Assembly (NCBI GenBank): GCA_017483985.1
Contig: JAFUUB010000025.1
Location: 1-18,123 of the forward strand
Reading direction: 5' to 3'
DNA length: 18,123 nucleotides
Source: Bacteroidales bacterium
GTDB taxonomy: Bacteria > Bacteroidota > Bacteroidia > Bacteroidales > UBA932
Part shown: in pieces, positions 333 to 16,351 of the stretch
Layout of the letters: each line of letters opens with the position of its first letter
Numbering within the stretch: the stretch's first letter is position 1
The notes under the pieces: model-generated
The model's input: the letters and a program-made list of their open reading frames with translations, nothing else
The model's database searches: none
What the model was told of the DNA's origin: nothing
Program-made: the position numbers and the translations under genes

Positions 333-454
333 TTCCGGTAGGACTGACACCGAATCGCGGTCTCACGGCGTATCGGTGTCAGGGGTGGCATCATGATCCG
401 GGGCCTGACACCGCCAGAGCTTCAGCAGGCGTTTTGGTGTCAGTCCTGCCGGAA
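333..454. repeat. Two facing REP-like palindromes (BIME-like unit)
   Basis: The 8-mer CTGACACC or its complement GGTGTCAG occurs four times in alternating orientation, at 344-351, 375-382, 405-412 and 436-443, at steps of 30-31 bases. Hairpin A (344-382) has a perfect 10-base stem, CTGACACCGA with TCGGTGTCAG. Hairpin B (405-443) has an 8-base stem that can extend through GCC/GGC. The outer arms are also mirrored: TTCCGGTAGGACTGACACC at 333-351 against its complement at 436-454, with 18 of 19 bases matching. GTAG stands two bases before hairpin A, and the facing unit has GCAG. In gammaproteobacterial REP elements a GTAG tetranucleotide beside a hairpin is the mark recognised by RAYT transposases. 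A RAYT-like gene starts here, so a REP/BIME identity is a reasonable inference. Confidence 0.7.
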
Positions 455-5086: not shown

Positions 5087-8000
5087 ATGAGTAAAAGTCT
5101 ATTCAGCAACGTCTGGATCAAGACCCTTTCCATTGCCTTCGTTGCCCTCTGCCTGGCTCTCCCGTGCGGGACGGCCTATGCCCAGGGCGGCGAAAGCGTT
5201 ACCCTGAAAATGCGGGTAACCTTGAGCAGGTGCTCATGGCAGTCGAGCGTCAGTCCGGACATGTGTTCCTGAACGACAACGTCGATCTCAGGAAGACGGT
5301 CAGCGCGGATGTCCAGGGTCAGACCCTGTCCTCCGCCCTCGACGAGATCCTCGCCGGTACCGGTGTCTACTACCGGATCAGCGGAGGCAATGTCGTCATT
5401 TCCACGGAGCCTCTCTCCGAGCAGAAGGCTGCCGAGCTGGTGAAAAAGCTTGCCCCGGTCTCTTCGACCGCCGCGACCCAGGCTGCCTCCCAGCCCGCCC
5501 AGCGCGAAGAACCCAAACCTGAAACTCAGCCCCAGCAGCCCCAGGGCCGCCAGGGCCAGGCCCGCACCATCAGCGGTACTATCGTGGATGAGTTCGGCGA
5601 GCCGGTGATCGGCGGCGCCGTCCTCCTCAAGGGCACGACCATCGGCGCCAGCACCGACATCGACGGTAACTTCTCCTTCGACGTGCCGGCCGGCAGCGAG
5701 GACCGCATCCTCGAATTCTCCAGCCTCGGCTATGCCACCGTTGAGGAACCCCTGAACGGCCGCAGCATCTTCAACGTGACCCTCGGTGAGGACAGCGAGA
5801 TGCTCGAGGCTACTGTCGTCACCGCTCTCGGTATCAAGCGTGCCGAACGCAGCGTGACCTATAATGTACAGAAAGTCAGCGACGAAGCCTTCGCCGTGCG
5901 GGAAGCCAATATGGTCAATTCCCTGCAGGGCAAACTGGCCGGCGTGCAGGTCAACTCGACCGCGGCCGGCGCCGGTGCCGAATCCAAGGTCGTCATGCGT
6001 GGTGCGAAGTCCATCGCTTCCAGCAACAACGCGCTCTACGTCCTGGACGGTATTCCGCTTCCGACCCTTTCCCGTACCAACCCTGGTGACAGCTGGAACA
6101 TCTATGCCGGTGCCGGCCTGACCGGTGACGGTATCTCCAACTTCAACCCGGAAGACATCGCCGAGACTTCCGCCCTCGTCGGTCCGTCCGCAGCCGCCCT
6201 TTATGGTTCCAAGGCTGCCAACGGTATCCTCATGCTGACGTCCCGCGGCGGTCAGGAAGGCATCAGCGTTTCCTACGCCAACAATACTTCCTTCTCCACG
6301 CCGGTGATGCTCCCGGAACTCCAGACGACTTACGGTTCCGCTGCGAACAGCTTCAAGTCCTGGGGCTCGAAACTCACCGCTGAACCTTCCTGGAACATCC
6401 GTGATTTCTTCCAGACCGGTTTCAACACCCAGAATTCCGTCGCGCTCTCCATGGGCGGCGAGAACTATACCACCTACCTGTCCGCTTCCATGACGAAGGC
6501 CGAAGGCATCATTCCGAACAACACCTACGGTAGGCAGAACCTGACGGCGAAGCATACGGCCGACCTGCTGGACGACCGTTTCCATGTCAGCCTGCTCGGC
6601 ATGTACATTACGGTCGACGAGCAGAACCAGCTGGCCGGCGGTCAGTACTACAACCCGCTCGTCCCGCTGTACCTGATGTCCCCGAGCGACGACCTGTCCA
6701 AGTACCAGACCTACGAGCGTCACGACGTGGTGCGCAACTTCAAGACTCAGTACTGGCCGGATTATGCCAGCGACTTTGCGATGCAGAACCCGTTCTGGGT
6801 CATCAACCGCAACATGACCACCGCCACCAAGGACCGTATCCTGCTCGGCGGCACGCTGGGTTATGACATCGCCGACTGGATCGACATCCAGGTCCGTGGC
6901 CGCATCGACTCGAACAACACCGTTTCCGAAATGAAGAACTACGCTTCCACCAACGGTCTGTTCGCCGGCAAGTTCGGCCGCTACTACTATGATACCTACA
7001 AGACCCGCCAGACCTATGCGGATGCCCTCCTGAACATCCACAAGCAGTTTGCCGACAACATCTGGCAGATCAATGCCGTGCTGGGCGCCGCCGTCGAAAC
7101 CTACAAGGATGCGGCCGTCTTCACGCGTGGTGACCTGCAGAAGATCGCCAACCTCTTCACGATGAACAATATGGACACCTCCAAGGGTCTCTGGAGAGAG
7201 AGCATCAACGACCAGACCCAGTCCGTCTTCGGTACGTTCCAGCTCGGTTTCCGCAACTGGCTCTTCCTCGACCTGACCGCCCGTAACGACTGGGATTCCC
7301 GTCTTACCAATCCGGAAGGAAAGGTCAAGTCCATCTTCTATCCGTCCGTGGGTCTGTCCGCCATCCTGACCGATGCGTTCAACGTCCACTCCGATTTCCT
7401 GTCCTTCGCCAAGGTCCGTGCTTCTTACGCCGAGGTGGGCAACGCCCCGATGCGTTACATCGTCGGTCCGAAGTACTACGAAGTCTCCAGCGGCGGTACC
7501 GCCGCCACCCGTTCCTGGGGAGTCGCGGACGATTTCGAGCCGGAGCGCACGAAATCCTTCGAAGCCGGTATCGACCTGCGCCTGTTCAGCGGCAAGCTGA
7601 CCTTCGCCGGTACCTATTATAATTCCCGTACCTTCAACCAGGTCTTCACCCCGACCGTGTCCGGCTACAGCACCTTCTATGTCAATGCTGGCCGTGTCGA
7701 CAACAAGGGTGTCGAACTCTCCCTGGGCTTCAACCAGGATCTGGGCCAGGTCCACTGGACTTCCAACCTGATCTACAGCCGCAACATCAACAAGATCGTC
7801 AAGATGCTCGACACCGAGATCAACGGCCGCCGCTATGTGAGCAGCAGCCTTAACGTGGGCGGTGTCGACGGTGCCAAGTTCTGGCTGACCGAAGGTGGCC
7901 GGATCGGTGACATCTATGTCAGCACCCTGAAGACCGATGAGCATGGCTACATCTTCGTCTCCAACGCCGAATCCGGCAACATCGTCGTTCCTGCGGAGAA

Positions 8001-8544
8001 CAAGGGAACCATCGAGACCATGATGTACGCCGGCAACGTGAACCCGTCCTGGACCGGTTCCTGGCGGAACGCCTTCTCCTGGAAGGGTCTTTCCGCTTCC
8101 GCCATGGTGACGGCCCGCGTCGGCGGTGTCGGCGTTTCCATCACGGAAGCCGCCTTTGATTCCTATGGCATGTCCAAGCGCACCGAAGAGGCCCGCGACA
8201 ACGGAGGCGCCCTCGTCAACGGTGTCCGCATCCCGGCCGAGCCGTTCTACACGACCATCGGCGGCCAGGGCGACAAGGCCATCGGTTCCTTCTATACCTA
8301 CTCCATGACCAACGTCCGCCTCAGTGAGGTGACCCTCGGCTATGACATCCCGATCAACAACTGGCTCAACTGGGTCAAGGGTCTGAATGTTTCCGTCGTC
8401 GGCCGCAACCTCCTGATGATCTACTGCAAGTCGCCGTTCGATCCGGAACTCATCCAGGGCGCCGGCAACTATTCCTCCGGTATCGACTACTTCATGGTGC
8501 CGTCTACCCGCAACATCGGTTTCTCGGCCAAGATCACCTTCTAA
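5087..8544 (+). CDS. SusC-family TonB-dependent outer membrane transporter, frameshifted near the N-terminus
   Basis: SusC proteins import oligosaccharides across the outer membrane with TonB energy and pair with SusD. The signal peptide starts at ATG 5087 and ends near AYA-Q (residues 1-32). That frame stops at 5272, while the rest of the protein continues in another frame from about 5212. Adding one base to the A-run at 5207-5210 joins them as TLKNAGNLEQVLMAVERQSG, the expected start of an STN domain. Rejoined, the product is about 1,152 residues, normal for the family. Domains in approximate rejoined numbering: STN 38-100; Ala/Pro/Gln-rich linker; carboxypeptidase-D-like repeat 162-238; plug 248-390 with ALYVLDGIP and YGSKAANGILMLTSRGG; beta-barrel to the end, finishing NIGFSAKITF with terminal Phe. 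The shift may be a real mutation, a switch or a sequence error. The long downstream frame shows no other damage. Confidence 0.9.
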
Positions 8545-8557
8545 TCACCGGAACATT

Positions 8558-10168
8558 ATGAAAACAAGTAAGATATTCAATCTCTTCGCTCTGGCCGTTG
8601 CATTCACGGCGGTCTCCTGCACCGGGGATTTCCTGGACAGGAATACCAATCCCGAGCAGGCTTATGAAGAGCATATGAAGCACGACGGTCTGGCCATCGG
8701 CGGTCCTTTCTCCCAGATGACCAAGAATGTCAGTGCCGCCTACCAGATGGGTGCCAGCGAATATGGTTCCGACCGCTATCAGGTCATCCAGGACCTGGCG
8801 GGCAACATTTTCTCCGGTTACACGGGCGCTACCAACAGCGGTTTCACCCAGAACAACCTGTATAACATCACCGCCGGTGGCTGGAGCAAAGGCATGTTCG
8901 AAGATGTCTACGAGCGTCTGGTGACCCAGGCCGTGAACGTCGAACCGCTCCGCGAAAGCTTCCCGTCCGAGGTCGCCCTCGTGGATATCGTCAAGGTCGC
9001 CGGCCTGCACCGCGTGACCGACTCCTACGGCCCGATTCCCTACAGCGTCATCTATGACGAAGAGCAGGTCCTGGCCCGTCCGTACGATTCCCAGGAGCAG
9101 GTCTACCGCGGCATGTTCAAGGATCTGGACAATGCCATCGAAACCCTTCAGAACCAGGCTCTCGGCGGCGGTATGCTGCTGGCCGATTATGACGATGTCT
9201 TCTACGGCGACGTCGCCAAGTGGGTCAAATTCGCCAACACCCTGCGCCTGCGTCTTGCCATGCACGTCGTCTATGCGGACGAAGCCCTCGCTTTCGAGGA
9301 GGCGGAGAAGTCCATCAACAACCCGGTCGGCCTGATGACCGAAGCCGGCGACGCCGCCTATCTCCATCCGGGTGCCGGTGCCTGGCAGTATCCGCTCTAC
9401 ACCATCCAGTACGACTTTAACAACGGTGACTCCGCCGTGGGTGCAACCATCGAGACCTACATGAACAGCTTTGGCGACCCGCGTCGTGAAAAACTCTTCA
9501 CCAAGGTCAGCGACGGCGCCCGTGACTATATCGGTGTCCGCAACGGTGTTACCAACGGATCCGACTACAAGCTCAAGGTTTCCCGCATCCTTTGCGACCA
9601 GACCAGCCCGATGCTGTGGATGGCGCCTGCAGAGGCTTATTTCCTGAAGGCCGAATACTGGCTCCGCAAGGGCGACGAGGCTCAGGCGAAGACCGCGTAT
9701 GAAGAAGGTGTGAAGGTCGCGTTCGCGACTGTCGGTGCCGCCGGTGCCGATGAGTACCTTGCTTCGACGGCGACCGTCGGCGGCTATACCGATCCGGTGG
9801 GCAACAACTCCTACGAGAACGCCCTGTCCGGTACGCCGGTCGTCTGGAGCGGTGCCTCTTCCTTCGAGAACCACCTCGAGCAGATCATCACCCAGAAGTA
9901 CATCGCCATGTTCCCGGAAGGCCAGGAAGCCTGGACCGAATATCGCCGTACCGGCTATCCGAACATCATTCCGGTCAAGCAGAACAACAGTGGCGGTACC
10001 ATCAACACGAACCTCCAGGTCCGTCGTCTTCCTTATCCTTCCAGCGAGTACCAGGCCAATGCGACCAATGTCGCCGCAGCCGTGACCCTGCTCGCCGGCG
10101 AGGCCAAGAGCGGATCCGCCGACAATGGCGGTACCCGTCTGTGGTGGGACAAGAACCCCAGATTCTAA
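8558..10168 (+). CDS. SusD/RagB-family glycan-binding outer membrane lipoprotein
   Basis: SusD-like lipoproteins cap the SusC barrel at the cell surface and bind the glycan. The 536-residue product starts with a lipoprotein signal peptide ending at AVSC (Cys21), then GDFLDRNTNPE, a typical SusD start. FGDPRREKLFTKVSD, the AEAYFLKAEYWLRKG helix (TPR-like) and KYIAMFPEGQEAWTEYRRTGYPNIIP place it in the SusD-like_2 group rather than classical SusD. Its C-terminus, RLWWDKNPRF, is also typical. It lies 13 bases after susC and 13 bases before the GH18 gene, as expected for an obligate pair in one operon. The ligand cannot be read from the sequence. Confidence 0.95.
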   Translation: MKTSKIFNLFALAVAFTAVSCTGDFLDRNTNPEQAYEEHMKHDGLAIGGPFSQMTKNVSAAYQMGASEYGSDRYQVIQDLAGNIFSGYTGATNSGFTQNNLYNITAGGWSKGMFEDVYERLVTQAVNVEPLRESFPSEVALVDIVKVAGLHRVTDSYGPIPYSVIYDEEQVLARPYDSQEQVYRGMFKDLDNAIETLQNQALGGGMLLADYDDVFYGDVAKWVKFANTLRLRLAMHVVYADEALAFEEAEKSINNPVGLMTEAGDAAYLHPGAGAWQYPLYTIQYDFNNGDSAVGATIETYMNSFGDPRREKLFTKVSDGARDYIGVRNGVTNGSDYKLKVSRILCDQTSPMLWMAPAEAYFLKAEYWLRKGDEAQAKTAYEEGVKVAFATVGAAGADEYLASTATVGGYTDPVGNNSYENALSGTPVVWSGASSFENHLEQIITQKYIAMFPEGQEAWTEYRRTGYPNIIPVKQNNSGGTINTNLQVRRLPYPSSEYQANATNVAAAVTLLAGEAKSGSADNGGTRLWWDKNPRF

Positions 10169-10181
10169 AACGTAGAGCATT

Positions 10182-11324
10182 ATGAAAAAAGCATTATATT
10201 ACCTCGCTGCTGCATTTGTAGCCGTCGCCGGCCTCCAGGCCTGCGATACGGAGCCGCAGGCCCTCGACCTGCAGCCGGCCTACGAATACACCGACGCCTA
10301 CTACAAGGCGCTGAGGGCGTACAAGGAGAGCGATCACTCGATCTGCTATCTCTGGTTCGCCAACTACGAAGAGGCTTGCCCGGGTTCCCGTTTCATGGGC
10401 CTTCCGGACAGTGTCGATGTCGTTTCGCTCTGGGGCGGTATCCCGAAGAGCGACGTCCTGCGCGAAGAGATGTATGAAATGCGCCGTCTCAAGGGCACCC
10501 GCCTGGTCGGCGTGAAGATCGTCCGTCTGGCTCCGAGCAATCCGAATTACTATAACTACCTGACCTGGGCCAAGGAAGCGGAGATCCCTTCCTTCATGGA
10601 GGCCTATAAGGCTGCGTATGACGAGACCTACAATGCCGCCATCGCCGCAGGTGACAAGGAAGACATCGCCGCCTCGAAGGCTGAGACGGCCGGCCGTGCA
10701 GCCGGTTGCAACGCCCTCCGTGCCGACATGTCCGCCCATCCGACCCGTACCCTCGTGTCCGGCGAAGAAGGCGCTGACAATGCAGTGTATGAGTATCCGG
10801 AATGGTGCCGTTATGCCGGTGACAACCTGCTGAACGAAATCAAGGAATACGATCTCGATGGCTATGACCTGGACTATGAACCGGAAGGTGACGCCCTCAG
10901 CGGCAACACGTTCCTGACCTTCGTCCAGTACCTTTCCCAGTTCATCGGTCCGAAGTCCCCGAATCCGCGTACCCTCTTGTGCGTCGATGCCCCGGGCGGT
11001 GCTCCCGGCATGTGCGCTCCGTATGCCGACTACAGCATCAACCAGTCCTATGGCAGCGTTCCTTCCGAGAGCAGCTTCAACCGGGGTGACTGGAGGAATG
11101 ATCAGTTGATTTTCTGCGAGAACATCGGCGATAGCTGGAAGACCGGCGGCGTGATGGAGCAGATCGCTGCTTTCCAGCCTTCCCGCGGCGGCCGCAAGGG
11201 CGGTTTCGGTGCGTTCCACAACCAGCGCGACTATGCCATCACGGCGGTCGGCGGTGACAAGGAGACCCCGTACGGCCACCTTCGCCGTGCGATCCAGCTC
11301 CAGAATCCGGCTGTTACCAAATAA
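10182..11324 (+). CDS. GH18-family lipoprotein, probable endo-beta-N-acetylglucosaminidase
   Basis: GH18 enzymes cut beta-1,4-GlcNAc linkages by substrate-assisted catalysis; the PUL-linked endo types release N-glycans between the two core GlcNAc residues. The 380-residue product has a lipoprotein signal (LQAC, Cys21) followed by acidic DTEPQALD, suggesting surface display. VVSLWGG near residues 83-89 corresponds to the SxGG strand. The catalytic DxxDxDxE is intact: D226, D229, D231 and acid/base E233. Q288-S-Y290 fits the substrate-binding tyrosine region late in the barrel. Many GH18-like PUL lipoproteins have lost these residues and only bind glycan, so their presence argues for activity. 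Unlike the B. thetaiotaomicron enzyme BT_3987, no DUF1735 domain is fused; that domain is on the neighbouring proteins. N-glycan specificity is an inference; chitin-like substrates are not excluded. Confidence 0.85.
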   Translation: MKKALYYLAAAFVAVAGLQACDTEPQALDLQPAYEYTDAYYKALRAYKESDHSICYLWFANYEEACPGSRFMGLPDSVDVVSLWGGIPKSDVLREEMYEMRRLKGTRLVGVKIVRLAPSNPNYYNYLTWAKEAEIPSFMEAYKAAYDETYNAAIAAGDKEDIAASKAETAGRAAGCNALRADMSAHPTRTLVSGEEGADNAVYEYPEWCRYAGDNLLNEIKEYDLDGYDLDYEPEGDALSGNTFLTFVQYLSQFIGPKSPNPRTLLCVDAPGGAPGMCAPYADYSINQSYGSVPSESSFNRGDWRNDQLIFCENIGDSWKTGGVMEQIAAFQPSRGGRKGGFGAFHNQRDYAITAVGGDKETPYGHLRRAIQLQNPAVTK

Positions 11325-11342
11325 TATTAAAGCAGCAACGTT

Positions 11343-13172
11343 ATGAAAAATATTGTCAAATATATGATGGCCGCCGTCGCCGGTATGGGTGTCCTCGCTG
11401 CCTGCGAGCAGCTGGAAGACTTCCAGACCACGATCGACGCCCCTGACGTGCTCGTCTATTCCCAGCAGGCCGGTTCCGCCAACGTGCACACGACCAAGAT
11501 CGCGCATGCCCCGGTCGGTTCCTTCGGTTCCTATGACGCCGTCTTCCCCGTGACCTGCAACTCCGGCAGCCACAAGGCTACAACGGTCAAAGTCACGTAT
11601 GACGCCGATGCCGCCCAGGCTTACAAGGACGAGAAGAAACTTGAGCACAGCATCCTTCCCGCCGAGTTCCTCAGCATTACCAAATATGTCGCGGGTGCCG
11701 AGGCGACGGCTTCTTCCGAGGCCCTTCTGACCCTTCCGGAAGACGCCCGTTCGACCACCGATTCCGTGCGGGTAGCCCTGACCGGCGACCTGAGCAAACT
11801 GACTGAAAAGCAGTATATCGCCGCCCTTAAGATTTCCTCCGACGCCTTCGAAGGAAGCGAGGTCATGGGTACCTATTATCTGGAAGTCCTGACCGAGAAG
11901 AACTGCATCCGCCCGCTGACCAGCATGGACGAAATGGCCGGCAAGACCGCCGACCGCAGCGGCTGGGAGTACATCGAAGGCCTGTCCGGCGATGTGTCTT
12001 CCCGCAAGTCCCTGCCTGGCGAGCCGGTGCAGATTGTCGTGGACATGAAGAAGAACTACATCGTCACCGGCGTCCGTTTCGGCCTGTACTCCTCTTGGAG
12101 CGTCCCTACGTTCAGCGCCATCGAGTATAGCACGGACGGCACGACCTGGGAGCAGGCCGGCAGCCCGGACCAGAACGGCCTGACCACCGACAATGCCGTC
12201 AATGTCGCTTTCTATGGCTATATCGAGGCCCGTTACATCAAGTTCACCGCCGATGCGACCAACGTCTCTTCCTGGTACCGCTACCTGAATGATTTCAACA
12301 TCTTCTGCGCAGCCGGCAAGGAGCCGACCCTGTACTTCGAGTGCGGAAAGGCCAATGTCTTTACCGGAAAGATCAAGCATTCCCCGGTCAGCTCCTCCAC
12401 GGATGTCGACTTTACCTTCCCTGTCCGCGTAGCCCCCGCCGGTACTTCGACCCTGACGGGAACGGTTGCCGTGGACAACAGTCTGATCGCCGCCTACAAC
12501 GAGGCGAACGGAACGGCTTTCGAGGCCCTTCCGGCCGCGAACCTGAAGCTTGAATTCGCCAGTGCATCCATTCCTGCCGGCAGCGTCAAGTCCGACGATG
12601 TCCATATCGCCCTGACGGGTGACCTGTCTGTGCTGCGCGCTTCCGCCGGTTACCTGATCCCCCTGAAGCTTACCTCTTCCTCCGCCGTAGATCCGGACAA
12701 TTCCGTGGTTTATGTCGTCGTCGAGGTCATGGAACAGCTGATCAAGTCCAACCCGACCGCTGCCGATCTCGCCGGACTGACCCTGGTCAACGACCGCAGC
12801 GGCTGGAGCGCCAAGGACGGCAACGGCAACCCGGTTGACGATATCTTCGGCCAGAGCTCCTGGAGCGGTTCCGATGCGAACCCGATCATCGTGGACCTGG
12901 GTGCGGAATACGAAATCGGCGCCATCGGCCTGGGCTCCGTCTATGGCAATTACGGCAGTTATTACCGTGTCAACGGTGCTACTCTGGCCTACAGCGTGGA
13001 CGGAACTTCCTTCACCGGTGTCGGCGTGGCCGCCGCCAGTGACTTCGTCTGGCAGAACCCTTATCAGGTTGCTGTCCTCGAAGTGACGGTCAAGGCCCGG
13101 TACATCCGCGTCTCCGACATTACCGCCAACTATTTCTATGGCCTGAACAACTTCAATGTATATGTCAAGTAG
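11343..13172 (+). CDS. Surface lipoprotein with duplicated DUF1735 + F5/8 type C modules
   Basis: This 609-residue lipoprotein (signal peptide ending LAAC, Cys21) is a tandem of two modules. By eye: DUF1735 (BT_3987-like N-terminal domain) at about 28-175, discoidin-like F5/8C at 180-325, DUF1735 again at 328-460, F5/8C again at 470-608. Both DUF1735 copies have the vALTGDLSxL strand, and both F5/8C copies have DRSGW, PI/QIVVDL and ARYIxxxD segments. A 15-base identical stretch (11952-11966 and 12792-12806) covers the first of these. F5/8C domains commonly bind carbohydrate. No catalytic domain is visible, so the likely role is a surface glycan-binding protein holding substrate for the GH18 enzyme and SusCD. 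It sits 18 bases after the GH18 gene. Confidence 0.85.
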   Translation: MKNIVKYMMAAVAGMGVLAACEQLEDFQTTIDAPDVLVYSQQAGSANVHTTKIAHAPVGSFGSYDAVFPVTCNSGSHKATTVKVTYDADAAQAYKDEKKLEHSILPAEFLSITKYVAGAEATASSEALLTLPEDARSTTDSVRVALTGDLSKLTEKQYIAALKISSDAFEGSEVMGTYYLEVLTEKNCIRPLTSMDEMAGKTADRSGWEYIEGLSGDVSSRKSLPGEPVQIVVDMKKNYIVTGVRFGLYSSWSVPTFSAIEYSTDGTTWEQAGSPDQNGLTTDNAVNVAFYGYIEARYIKFTADATNVSSWYRYLNDFNIFCAAGKEPTLYFECGKANVFTGKIKHSPVSSSTDVDFTFPVRVAPAGTSTLTGTVAVDNSLIAAYNEANGTAFEALPAANLKLEFASASIPAGSVKSDDVHIALTGDLSVLRASAGYLIPLKLTSSSAVDPDNSVVYVVVEVMEQLIKSNPTAADLAGLTLVNDRSGWSAKDGNGNPVDDIFGQSSWSGSDANPIIVDLGAEYEIGAIGLGSVYGNYGSYYRVNGATLAYSVDGTSFTGVGVAAASDFVWQNPYQVAVLEVTVKARYIRVSDITANYFYGLNNFNVYVK

Positions 13173-13179
13173 GAATACC

Positions 13180-14325
13180 ATGAAAAAGATATTTTCCATC
13201 GCAGCGGCCGTCGTGGCGCTCGCCGGATGCCAGAAGTCTCTGGAGTACAGGGATGTCCTGTACTTCACCGGGACCGAAGACGATCCCGCCGTCAGCATGT
13301 ATGTCGACGGTCCGGCTTCGAAGAACCTGACGGTCTCCTCGTCCAAGGTTTATGACGAGGATGTCAATATCGCCGTGATGGTCGACCCTTCGGCGCTGGA
13401 GGCGTTCAACGCCGCCAACGGCACCTCTTACCAGATGCTTCCCGAAGGCAGCTACCAGCTCAGCGACAACCATTTCACGATCTATGCGGGAACCAGCGTT
13501 TCCGCACCGGTCGCCTTCTCGATCGTCTCCATGGATGATTTCGAGGAAGGCGTGCTGTATTGCGCCCCGGTCCGGCTCCTGGCCGCCGCGGACGGTTCCA
13601 ACATCCTCTATCCCAGCCAGACGATCTTCCTGGTGATCAACTCCATCATCACCACCCGCTGCGTCAACCTGGGCGGTTCCAACTGGTACAACATGGAGAC
13701 GATGGTCAACAACTCCGACCTGGCCAACCTGCCGGCCGTGACCCTCGAGGCCCGCGTCTACATGAACGGCTGGTCCAACCTCAGCCACAAGATCGCTTCC
13801 GTGGTCGGTATCGAGGAGCACATGATCGTCCGTTTCGGCGATGTCTCCTGCGACCGTGACCAGCTTCAGGTGGCAGGCCGCGGCGTCTCCCTGACGTCCA
13901 CCGACCACTTCTCCCTGGGCCGTTGGTACCACATCGTCGCCATCGACGACGGTTCCAAGCTCCGCCTGTATGTGGACGGCAAGCTCGAAGGTGAGGTTGA
14001 TTCCTCCGGCAAGGCTGCCCTGAACCTCGGTGCGAACGCCGAAGGCGGCGGTTTCCGTATCGGCGCCTCCGCCGGTGACAACCGTCCGTTGAACGGTTAC
14101 ATCAGCGAGGTCCGCGCCTGGAAGCGTGCCCTGTCCATCGTCGAGGCTGAGAATAACCAGTGCTATGTCAACCCGGAAACCGCGCAGGACCTGGTCGGTT
14201 ACTGGCGGATGGACCAGCTGGATGAGAGCGGCAAACTCGTCGACCTGTCCGGCAACGGCTATGTAGGTACCCCGAGAGGCGGCACCAACTGGGTGGACGG
14301 CATCAAGTGCCCGGTCGTTGAATAA
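13180..14325 (+). CDS. Surface lipoprotein with DUF1735 and LamG-like domains
   Basis: The 381-residue product starts at ATG 13180, seven bases after the previous stop; an in-frame ATG at 13156 lies inside the previous gene and would spoil the signal peptide. The lipoprotein signal ends LAGC (Cys17). Residues about 22-150 are DUF1735-like, containing AFNAANGTSYQMLPEGSY, similar to the AYNEANGTAFEALP stretch in the preceding protein. Residues about 160-381 form a concanavalin A-like LamG_3 domain, with RWYHIVAIDDGSKLRLYVDG, then GYISEVRAWKRAL and YWRMDQ near the end. Such proteins are usually non-catalytic glycan binders. The next gene overlaps its stop codon by eight bases, suggesting coupled translation. 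Confidence 0.85.
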   Translation: MKKIFSIAAAVVALAGCQKSLEYRDVLYFTGTEDDPAVSMYVDGPASKNLTVSSSKVYDEDVNIAVMVDPSALEAFNAANGTSYQMLPEGSYQLSDNHFTIYAGTSVSAPVAFSIVSMDDFEEGVLYCAPVRLLAAADGSNILYPSQTIFLVINSIITTRCVNLGGSNWYNMETMVNNSDLANLPAVTLEARVYMNGWSNLSHKIASVVGIEEHMIVRFGDVSCDRDQLQVAGRGVSLTSTDHFSLGRWYHIVAIDDGSKLRLYVDGKLEGEVDSSGKAALNLGANAEGGGFRIGASAGDNRPLNGYISEVRAWKRALSIVEAENNQCYVNPETAQDLVGYWRMDQLDESGKLVDLSGNGYVGTPRGGTNWVDGIKCPVVE

Positions 14326-15058
14326 GTTCCTGCATATCATGGCAGTTTGCGCTGCAGCTGTCCTGGCTGCCGGTCATCCGGCGGCCGGGCAGACTGCGCG
14401 TATCCTGCAGTTTGACGCTCCCGTCCAGAACTTCGGATCCATCCGTTATGACGCCAAGCCCGTGACGGTCCGGTTCGCCTGCACCAACATCGCGGACAAA
14501 CCGGTATCCATCGTGGACGTGCATGTCCAGTGCGGCTGTACGATTCCGTCCTGGAGCAAGGACGCCATCGCGCCCGGAGCCAAAGGCTACGTGGACGTGG
14601 TCCTCGATCCGGCTTCCCTGGTCGGCCCGCAGAAGCGGCACCTCACGGTCATCGCGACCAACGGGGATTACCGCAAGTATAACACCATCACCCTGGAGGG
14701 TGAGGTGCTGCGGGACGAGACGCTGGACCAGATCCGGCATCCCCACCAGTGGGGCGGCGGACTGCGGACGGACCTTGACGTGATCGGCCTGAGGCTGTGG
14801 AAGCAAGGTACGGTCGTCGAGCGGCCTTTGTCCGTGATGAACGACAGCGACGCACCCATGCGGATGCGCTGGTCCTGTCCGTCCCGTCGGGCGAAGGTGA
14901 CGATGCCGGCCCTGATCCGGCCCGGACAGGTTGTCGAGGCTACGGTCCGGTACGATACCTCCGGATTGCCGGAGGGGGAGTATACCGACGAGATCTACCT
15001 CTATGTCGGTGACGTCCGCTACGGACCGATCGTCCTCAAGGGAGCCGTCGAACGCTAA
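14318..15058 (+). CDS. Secreted DUF1573 protein within the PUL
   Basis: The 246-residue product contains a DUF1573 (PF07610-like) Ig-like domain at about 30-128: NFGSIRYDAKPVTVRFACTN, then VQCGCTIPSW with C72 and C74 and a PGxxGxVxVxxD strand. A second, more divergent Ig-like half runs from about 150 to 246. TTG 14318 was chosen over ATG 14339 because it gives a normal signal peptide (MNKFLHI then a hydrophobic run, cleavage near AAGQ); from the ATG the basic N-region is lost. The TTG overlaps the previous stop, so translational coupling is likely. There is no good lipobox, so it is probably periplasmic or secreted. DUF1573 has no established function and is not a standard PUL component; a structural or binding role is only a guess. 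Confidence 0.75.
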   Translation: MNKFLHIMAVCAAAVLAAGHPAAGQTARILQFDAPVQNFGSIRYDAKPVTVRFACTNIADKPVSIVDVHVQCGCTIPSWSKDAIAPGAKGYVDVVLDPASLVGPQKRHLTVIATNGDYRKYNTITLEGEVLRDETLDQIRHPHQWGGGLRTDLDVIGLRLWKQGTVVERPLSVMNDSDAPMRMRWSCPSRRAKVTMPALIRPGQVVEATVRYDTSGLPEGEYTDEIYLYVGDVRYGPIVLKGAVER

Positions 15059-15082
15059 TTGCCAGAGAAATAAACGTTGAAT

Positions 15083-16351
15083 ATGAAAAAGATAATCACC
15101 ATCCTTTCCGTTTCCCTCGGCCTGCTGGCCTTTGCCGCCTGCTCCGAGAAGACTGAAACTACGCCGGAATATCCCGCGGCCGAATCCCTGTCCATCAACC
15201 AGACAGCCCTTCAGCTTGACGGTATCGGCGCCACGGCGACCCTTTCCGCCACCGTCGCTCCGACGACCGCTGCGGTGACCTGGGCCAGTTCCGACCCGAC
15301 CGTCGCCACTGTTTTCAACGGTGTCGTGACCGGCCGCGGCCGTGGCAGCTGCGAGGTCTATGCCATGGCCGGCGACCTCAAGGCCTATTGCGCCGTGACC
15401 GTCGGACATGAGATTCCGACCTCCTCTCTCGTTGTGGATCCGTCCGAACTGACCGTCAAGGCCGGTGAAACGGCCACCCTTACCGTGACCGCCCTCCCGG
15501 AAGACCATACCGACGAACCCGTGTATGCCTGGTCGAGCAGTGACGAGACCGTCGCCACCGTCAACGGCGGTGTCGTGACCGGTGTCGCTGCCGGCACGGC
15601 CACCATCAAGGTCGTTACCGGCACGATCGAGGCCACCTGCGAAGTGACCGTCACTTCCGATGCCCCGACCCCGACCGACAACCCCTACCTGGTGAACCTG
15701 ACCACCCAATACTTCCCGTATGACTGGGCTTCGGCCGACGCCACGCAGGACAACATCACCATGGAAGCCTGGGTCAAGCCGTCCTCCTTCGAAGGCAGCA
15801 ACGACAACATCTACACGATCGTCGGCACGGAAGGCATCTTCCTGCTCCGCTTCGAAGGCAGCCAGCTGAACCTGGTCTACGGCGGAACGAAGAAGTCCAA
15901 CGGCGAATACAATGAGAAGAAGGTCACATATTCGACCAACTTCAGCACCGGCGAGTGGCACCATGTGGCCGCGACCTACGCCAAGGGCGGAGACGTCGTC
16001 CTTTATGTAGATGGCGAGCAAGTGGGCAAGAACACCGCGGAGGATCATGGCATCGAGCTGAACGGTATCGGCGCCACCTGGGTGCTCCCGTTCAAGTTCT
16101 ATGTCGGCGTCTCTTCCAACAACCGCTATTTCAAGGGTTCCATCGCCGATGTCCGGATCTGGAACAAGGCCCGCACGGGCGAGGAGATCAAGGCTGACAT
16201 GAGGAAGGCCGCTCCTTCCACCTCCGGCCTGATGGCTTACTGGCGCTTCAACGAGGGTTCCGGCAATACCGTGAAGGATTACTCCGGTAACGGCCGCGAC
16301 ATCACCGCCAACGCCGCCCTGACCTGGATCGAGGCCGAACGCCCGTTCTAA
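15083..16351 (+). CDS. Surface lipoprotein with two BIG2 domains and a LamG domain
   Basis: The 422-residue product starts at ATG 15083; a TTG two codons upstream is possible but less likely. The lipoprotein signal ends FAAC (Cys20), followed by acidic SEKTETTPEYP, consistent with surface export. Two BIG2 Ig-like repeats lie at about 36-110 and 115-190, each with V(T/Y)AWxSSDxTVATVxxGVVTG and a closing VTV strand. Residues about 200-415 are a LamG_3 domain: NITMEAWVKPSSF, GEWHHVAATYAKGGDVVLYVDGEQVG, FKGSIADVRIWNKAR and LMAYWRFNEGSG. The BIG2 pair probably acts as a spacer lifting the LamG glycan-binding domain from the membrane. It is the last PUL gene. No clear terminator follows before the rplM promoter 20 bases downstream, so read-through into the ribosomal genes is possible. 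Confidence 0.85.
   Translation: MKKIITILSVSLGLLAFAACSEKTETTPEYPAAESLSINQTALQLDGIGATATLSATVAPTTAAVTWASSDPTVATVFNGVVTGRGRGSCEVYAMAGDLKAYCAVTVGHEIPTSSLVVDPSELTVKAGETATLTVTALPEDHTDEPVYAWSSSDETVATVNGGVVTGVAAGTATIKVVTGTIEATCEVTVTSDAPTPTDNPYLVNLTTQYFPYDWASADATQDNITMEAWVKPSSFEGSNDNIYTIVGTEGIFLLRFEGSQLNLVYGGTKKSNGEYNEKKVTYSTNFSTGEWHHVAATYAKGGDVVLYVDGEQVGKNTAEDHGIELNGIGATWVLPFKFYVGVSSNNRYFKGSIADVRIWNKARTGEEIKADMRKAAPSTSGLMAYWRFNEGSGNTVKDYSGNGRDITANAALTWIEAERPF

Follow-up and report, generated by a model that had tools for sequence, protein, structure and literature searches.

The window analysed here is the whole of an 18,123-nt stretch of DNA, contig JAFUUB010000025.1 of a Bacteroidales bacterium, and our subject is a palindrome at positions 333–454 together with the plus-strand gene at 593–1447. 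The gene encodes a protein of 284 amino acids that resembles the REP-associated tyrosine transposases (RAYT or TnpAREP; REP: repetitive extragenic palindrome). The palindrome consists of two facing hairpins built from four 8-mer arms of alternating orientation, starting at 344, 375, 405 and 436, in steps of 31, 30 and 31 bases. Arms 1 (344–351) and 3 (405–412) are CTGACACC on the plus strand, and arms 2 (375–382) and 4 (436–443) lie on the minus strand, the plus strand reading GGTGTCAG. An outer stem of 22 bp, including one T–G pair, joins 333–354 with 433–454. Read from the sequence, GTAG (338–341, plus strand) stands two bases ahead of the stem of arm 1, and GCAG (446–449, minus strand) is found at the mirrored position of the facing unit. 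Arms, steps, hairpins and tags all agree with the original prediction. The facing palindromic units are those of a REP doublet, i.e. a REPIN (REP doublet forming a hairpin) or BIME (bacterial interspersed mosaic element).

Folded as single-stranded DNA, 333–454 reaches −36.3 kcal/mol (z −6.36), a value equalled by none of 200 dinucleotide shuffles. An inverted-repeat search returned a 60-nt pair (324–383 with 404–463, 73% complementary) and an inner pair (344–361 with 365–382). When at least four arms are demanded in both orientations within 170 nt, the pattern is seen in none of 1240 shuffled flanks (from all 31 loci treated below) and in one of 291 control tiles. A cruder count is weaker: of 2000 shuffles of 231–592, 4 contain an 8-mer that occurs at least four times on either strand, and so do 6 of 297 overlapping 362-nt tiles cut from the window itself, among them tiles that include the palindrome. 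The sole additional exact arm in the window is a CTGACACC in lpxK, at 2597.

The palindrome had been described as touching the gene, which the homologues do not bear out. Two hundred homologues of the window protein were found; 120 of them, one being the window's own protein, were listed and aligned. Among these, 13 start at the residue of ATG 593, 63 one residue later and 18 further upstream, and P0002, the closest listed homologue, is 284 amino acids long with a start that matches ATG 593. As the listed homologues mostly start at or after this residue, the gene probably begins at ATG 593 and is clear of the palindrome. The open reading frame (ORF) from TTG 434 reaches into the palindrome because that frame happens to be open.

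The RAYT-like protein

The naming of the neighbour as a RAYT stands as regards its fold and its HUH (His-hydrophobic-His) motif, and falls short at the catalytic tyrosine. The motif is intact as THFH, its codons lying at 755–766 as computed from the reading frame; across the 120 listed homologues the first His is kept in 119 and the last in all. P0117, with Asn at the first His, is another homologue minus a catalytic residue. In the alignment columns FMY-x-YRN, Tyr and Arg are each present in 119 of the 120 sequences, and the window protein is the sole exception to both, with His (CAT, 911–913) and Pro (CCC, 920–922). Tyr is also found in all 31 genus loci of a separate alignment. These two alignments are the evidence on the Tyr column; the loci from the GTDB scan described below were partly found with a pattern containing FMY, and their Tyr is not independent. 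The motif expression left out L045 and L050, the latter being the same place as L013, which has Tyr. A shift of the catalytic Tyr by one helix turn (FMHVY) was considered and rejected: the His of FMHVYPN aligns to the Tyr column, where relatives read FMYVYRN. At the 67 most conserved columns the two differences of the window protein are not extreme, ten other sequences having two and two having three.

The predicted structure of the window protein aligns best to the RAYT 4er8 (PDB), an E. coli protein, and the modelled fold is RAYT-like. A profile comparison with four paralogues from G001, the genome nearest to the window, gave a probability of 99.8% and placed the window His on their Tyr. Sequence-profile searches against PDB returned no match. 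Searches of the window ORF against Pfam and NCBIfam up to E 10 gave no match, not even to the NCBIfam RAYT entry NF047646; the same entry does not match P0002 or P0047 up to E 1. Pfam Y1_Tnp is matched by none of 30 family members up to E 1, and no Pfam entry of any kind matches them better than E 0.023.

Repeats flanking related genes

A scan of GTDB genomes yielded 30 related loci, all titled Bacteroidales or Bacteroidia. Some carry RUG names, presumably denoting rumen genomes, and the rumen is named in the titles of several others. Comparing 700 nt upstream with 900 nt downstream of each gene (shared repeat at E 1e-3), we found a repeat common to both flanks at 26 of the 30 loci, mostly in direct orientation; 51 control pairs drawn from these loci had none. 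Taken as clusters at 80% protein identity, 15 of 19 have such a repeat. With the window flanks included, at least three alternating arms are present in 15 of 62 flanks (6 of 1240 shuffles and 8 of 291 control tiles) and at least four in 5 of 62 (0 of 1240 and 1 of 291). Because 47 of the 62 flanks fall short of three exact arms, it is the bracketing repeat, not the four-arm form, that is the general feature of the family. Stem sequences vary from clade to clade and agree within some (L042 and L043; L060, L061 and L056). GTAG is also present in the unit of RUG528. The expectation that the same repeat would lie beside RAYT homologues in relatives was borne out in so far as palindromic repeats adjoin the homologues; the window's exact arm pair itself was found in none of 400 genus genomes.

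Five RAYT-like genes (L001–L005) are found in the single 2.1-Mb genome G001, several with their own flanking repeat arrays. L034 and L044 have homologous flanks around a RAYT-like gene of opposite orientation (pieces of at least 60 nt, among the matches listed). Concerning upstream motifs, TTATCCGTTT was rejected as RAYT-specific, being not confined to RAYT-like genes. L124, L133, L134 and the region upstream of the L035 gene have the motif ACTTTATCCGTTTCCC..GAACACGG in common, which precedes not only a RAYT-like gene but also a lipoprotein-like one, in three genomes.

One whole unit is present in one genome and precisely absent from another. RUG193 (L039) contains a 1,287-nt unit where RUG253 (L035) is contiguous; flank identity is 96.7% over 1312 nt on one side and 95.1% over 575 nt on the other, and the joint has one base of ambiguity and no target duplication. 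The coding part of the L039 unit shares just 87% identity with the copy located elsewhere in RUG253, less than the flanks do, so that other copy is not a fresh transposition product. Read by eye, the RUG253 joint keeps outer letters also shown by solitary copies; because these letters remain, the joint looks like an excision footprint, and we lean to excision over insertion in RUG193. This is a single clean case, and it may reflect misassembly of a 5.5-kb contig of a metagenome-assembled genome. Besides RUG253's own, no uninterrupted orthologous site was found (84 of 300 genomes with a match; nine loci read at the junction). The 'empty sites' among L052–L059 were not counted, as the alignments span between the locus's own flanking repeats, and the gaps of L035/L049 and L033/L035 are inexact, the empty partner retaining 21 and 60 nt. 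Two RAYT/REPIN sites enclose a 2.5-kb segment whose orientation in G414 and G475 (L177 and L178) is the reverse of that in RUG253 (L035), with a different four-arm palindrome at one breakpoint; no RAYT-like match is present in the stretches of G414 and G475 that were examined.

The window copy and palindrome copy number

Rightwards from 1464 the window is collinear with and 96.4% identical to G001, which is very probably RUG528 and has 59% of the window's sampled words in common with it. Leftwards of this breakpoint nothing is matched in the 4.2 kb compared except an inverted dus copy. The window's partial second dus copy lies inverted at the contig end (1–236, minus strand), with 225 of 236 bases the same as in the window's own dus. 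Upstream of lpxK, RUG528 and the window differ in sequence. After the window gene, the comparison of upstream and downstream flanks gave no right-hand repeat matching the palindrome; of the hairpin ends that IS200/IS605-type elements have on both sides of the gene, only the left one is present. Further to the right, a run of ORFs at 5164–16351 resembles a SusC/SusD-type outer-membrane locus, judged from the translations alone.

Because the catalytic Tyr is His, no right repeat was found and synteny breaks just past the gene, the simplest view of the window copy is that of a decayed unit lying at a point of rearrangement, or else of a chimeric end of the contig, and it is probably an inactive remnant. 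We consider it likely that the REPIN-like doublet at 333–454 forms the left end of a unit carrying a RAYT, and that the window holds a low-copy remnant of this unit which probably no longer works. In the relatives, an HUH-type single-strand endonuclease of this family has copies of its own repeat unit on either side, and solitary copies elsewhere are few at most. By analogy with the published biochemistry of RAYT and IS200 proteins, it may be presumed that the enzyme recognises the hairpins of its own unit in single-stranded DNA and would cut and rejoin there; the pairing of the window palindrome with the RAYT-like protein is predicted on the same grounds. More generally, Bacteroidales RAYT-like genes with palindromic ends might be units of low copy number with precise excision and insertion, in the manner of IS200/IS605 elements, a proposal that we regard as tentative and somewhat doubtful.

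Several observations weigh against the reading as a remnant of a RAYT-carrying unit. The window and four of the 30 loci (L034, L041, L045 and L048) have no repeat common to both flanks; strong hairpins are nonetheless present upstream in L034 and downstream in L041. A fold z of −5 is reached on neither flank or on only one at 15 of the 31 loci. Also, GTAG is not general, the TTGCAA-type units of relatives being without it. Foldseek alone puts 4er8 in 17th place (E 0.01), with IS200-type transposases ahead at E 0.003 and acylphosphatases close behind. The His comes from a single contig, where an error of sequencing or assembly could have produced it. Finally, the copy numbers given below are known from relatives, and if CTGACACC units proved numerous in the genome of the window, the reading as an ordinary REP would return.

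An assembly chimera in the leftmost 1.46 kb of the contig, in which palindrome and gene are real and come from another locus or strain, is rather unlikely and would be compatible with a RAYT-carrying unit. The window is apparently the whole contig, and both the synteny break at 1464 and the partial inverted dus copy at the contig end speak for a chimera; the dus copy, however, has 11 mismatches in 236 bases and an upstream sequence of its own, and so is not just the same allele folded back, and even in a chimera the palindrome and the gene share one side of the break.

Looking at copy number, the original prediction of a REP or BIME, with many intergenic copies, holds for the doublet architecture, whereas the palindromes of relatives are clade-specific and present in one to three exact copies per genome (four of four RAYT-associated types). 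In whole-genome searches with the arm pairs of these palindromes, exact pairs are found at two places in RUG528 and at two in RUG193; three further genomes have two, two and one, and the palindrome type of another RUG528 paralogue occurs at three. Eleven of these 12 places adjoin a RAYT-like gene, and control genomes gave none (0 of 8, 0 of 8, 0 of 2 and 0 of 3). Exact-arm searches miss diverged copies. A 101-nt BLAST query in RUG528 returned two strong matches, both beside the gene, the next match being at E 0.18. With a 1.6-kb query of the RUG253 unit, which represents a fifth palindrome type, more diverged end-like pieces away from full genes were found at at least five places in three genomes (among the 40 of 83 candidates scored in G408 and 40 of 45 in G402); three such solitary pieces were examined and read as four-arm units, with no RAYT-like match in 1.0–1.5 kb on either side.

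It is therefore improbable, on these counts, that the palindrome belongs to an ordinary high-copy REP/BIME population served by the RAYT, the low numbers in relatives being a lineage accident, although diverged copies would escape the exact searches. Architecture and GTAG match gammaproteobacterial REP descriptions, and the abundance of another dispersed repeat in RUG253 implies that such genomes tolerate REP-like repeats; the absence of the window's arm pair from the genus genomes and the replacement of Tyr by His in the window argue to the contrary. That other repeat, a palindrome of the TTCCGGGTCAAGCCCGGAATGAC type (L035:3721–3750 and the RUG253 genome; 40 of 44 matches listed for RUG253, with 40 of 83 candidates scored), has one copy within the RAYT unit and, in our judgement, resembles CGTC-tagged repeats. 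CGTC repeats in Bacteroidetes are treated in PMC3733652. A terminator, attenuator or other regulatory hairpin unconnected with the enzyme would suit the intergenic position upstream of the RAYT-like gene, with the divergent dus copy on the other side, but is very improbable, with no terminator-like site in 200–640, no Rfam match at the gathering threshold in 1–2000, and matching repeats on both sides of homologous genes, plus solitary copies, that are unexpected for a terminator.

Relation to known systems

The window system looks like a known bacterial repeat system in a low-copy form. It is like TnpAREP/RAYT with its REPs (the REPtron; 4er8) in fold, HUH motif, palindromes beside the gene, the GTAG of the window unit and, in relatives of the window protein, an Asn four residues past the Tyr. 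It is unlike them in that this family of about 283 amino acids lacks Pfam Y1_Tnp (30 scanned) and NCBIfam RAYT (three scanned) matches, the window subfamily has Y-x-x-x-N-C in place of Y-x-x-x-N-P, exact palindrome copies number one to three per related genome, and the Tyr is lost in the window. IS200/IS605 elements are alike in having an HUH transposase gene between hairpin ends, and in the lack of target duplication at the single joint read. They differ in that the ends here consist of repeat units that measure up to 120 nt or more, with one or a few units per genome; the protein aligns better to 4er8 than to IS608, and P0002 has no match among plasmid and phage records at E 1e-5.

REPINs are reportedly present in high copy number in Pseudomonas fluorescens SBW25. 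Rare precise excisions of SBW25 REPINs, leaving about 6 bp of conserved end, are described in an excerpt of PMC3116915; the doublet of facing palindromes is the same, whereas presence or absence here covers the whole unit including the gene. A REP/RAYT pairing had been thought new to Bacteroidetes, a view contradicted by PMC6006769, which already gives TnpAY1 subclasses 2.4 and 2.6 there, subclass 2.6 being flanked by 'atypical secondary structures'. Subclass 2.6 is alike in its occurrence in Bacteroidetes and in gene-flanking atypical structures with copies elsewhere in the genome. Its Table 1 motifs are NH[LIV]H and YIH[QN]NP with a median of 179 amino acids, against TH[LF]H, Y[VA]YRNC and about 283 amino acids here; the comparison is with this published motif table.

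RAYTs are regarded as domesticated, non-mobile transposases: passages of PMC8266576 and PMC8049555 state that 'there is no evidence of tnpAREP mobility' and that RAYTs 'do not copy themselves'. Precise movement of whole units, if true, would run against this published view, and the one precise presence/absence in this family makes RAYT mobility testable. Judging by titles and the beginnings of abstracts in the open literature, low-copy bracketing RAYT units in Bacteroidales are undescribed among the matches listed. With paired ends and very few dispersed repeats, the Bacteroidales family may mark a transitional form between IS200-like elements and REP–RAYT systems.
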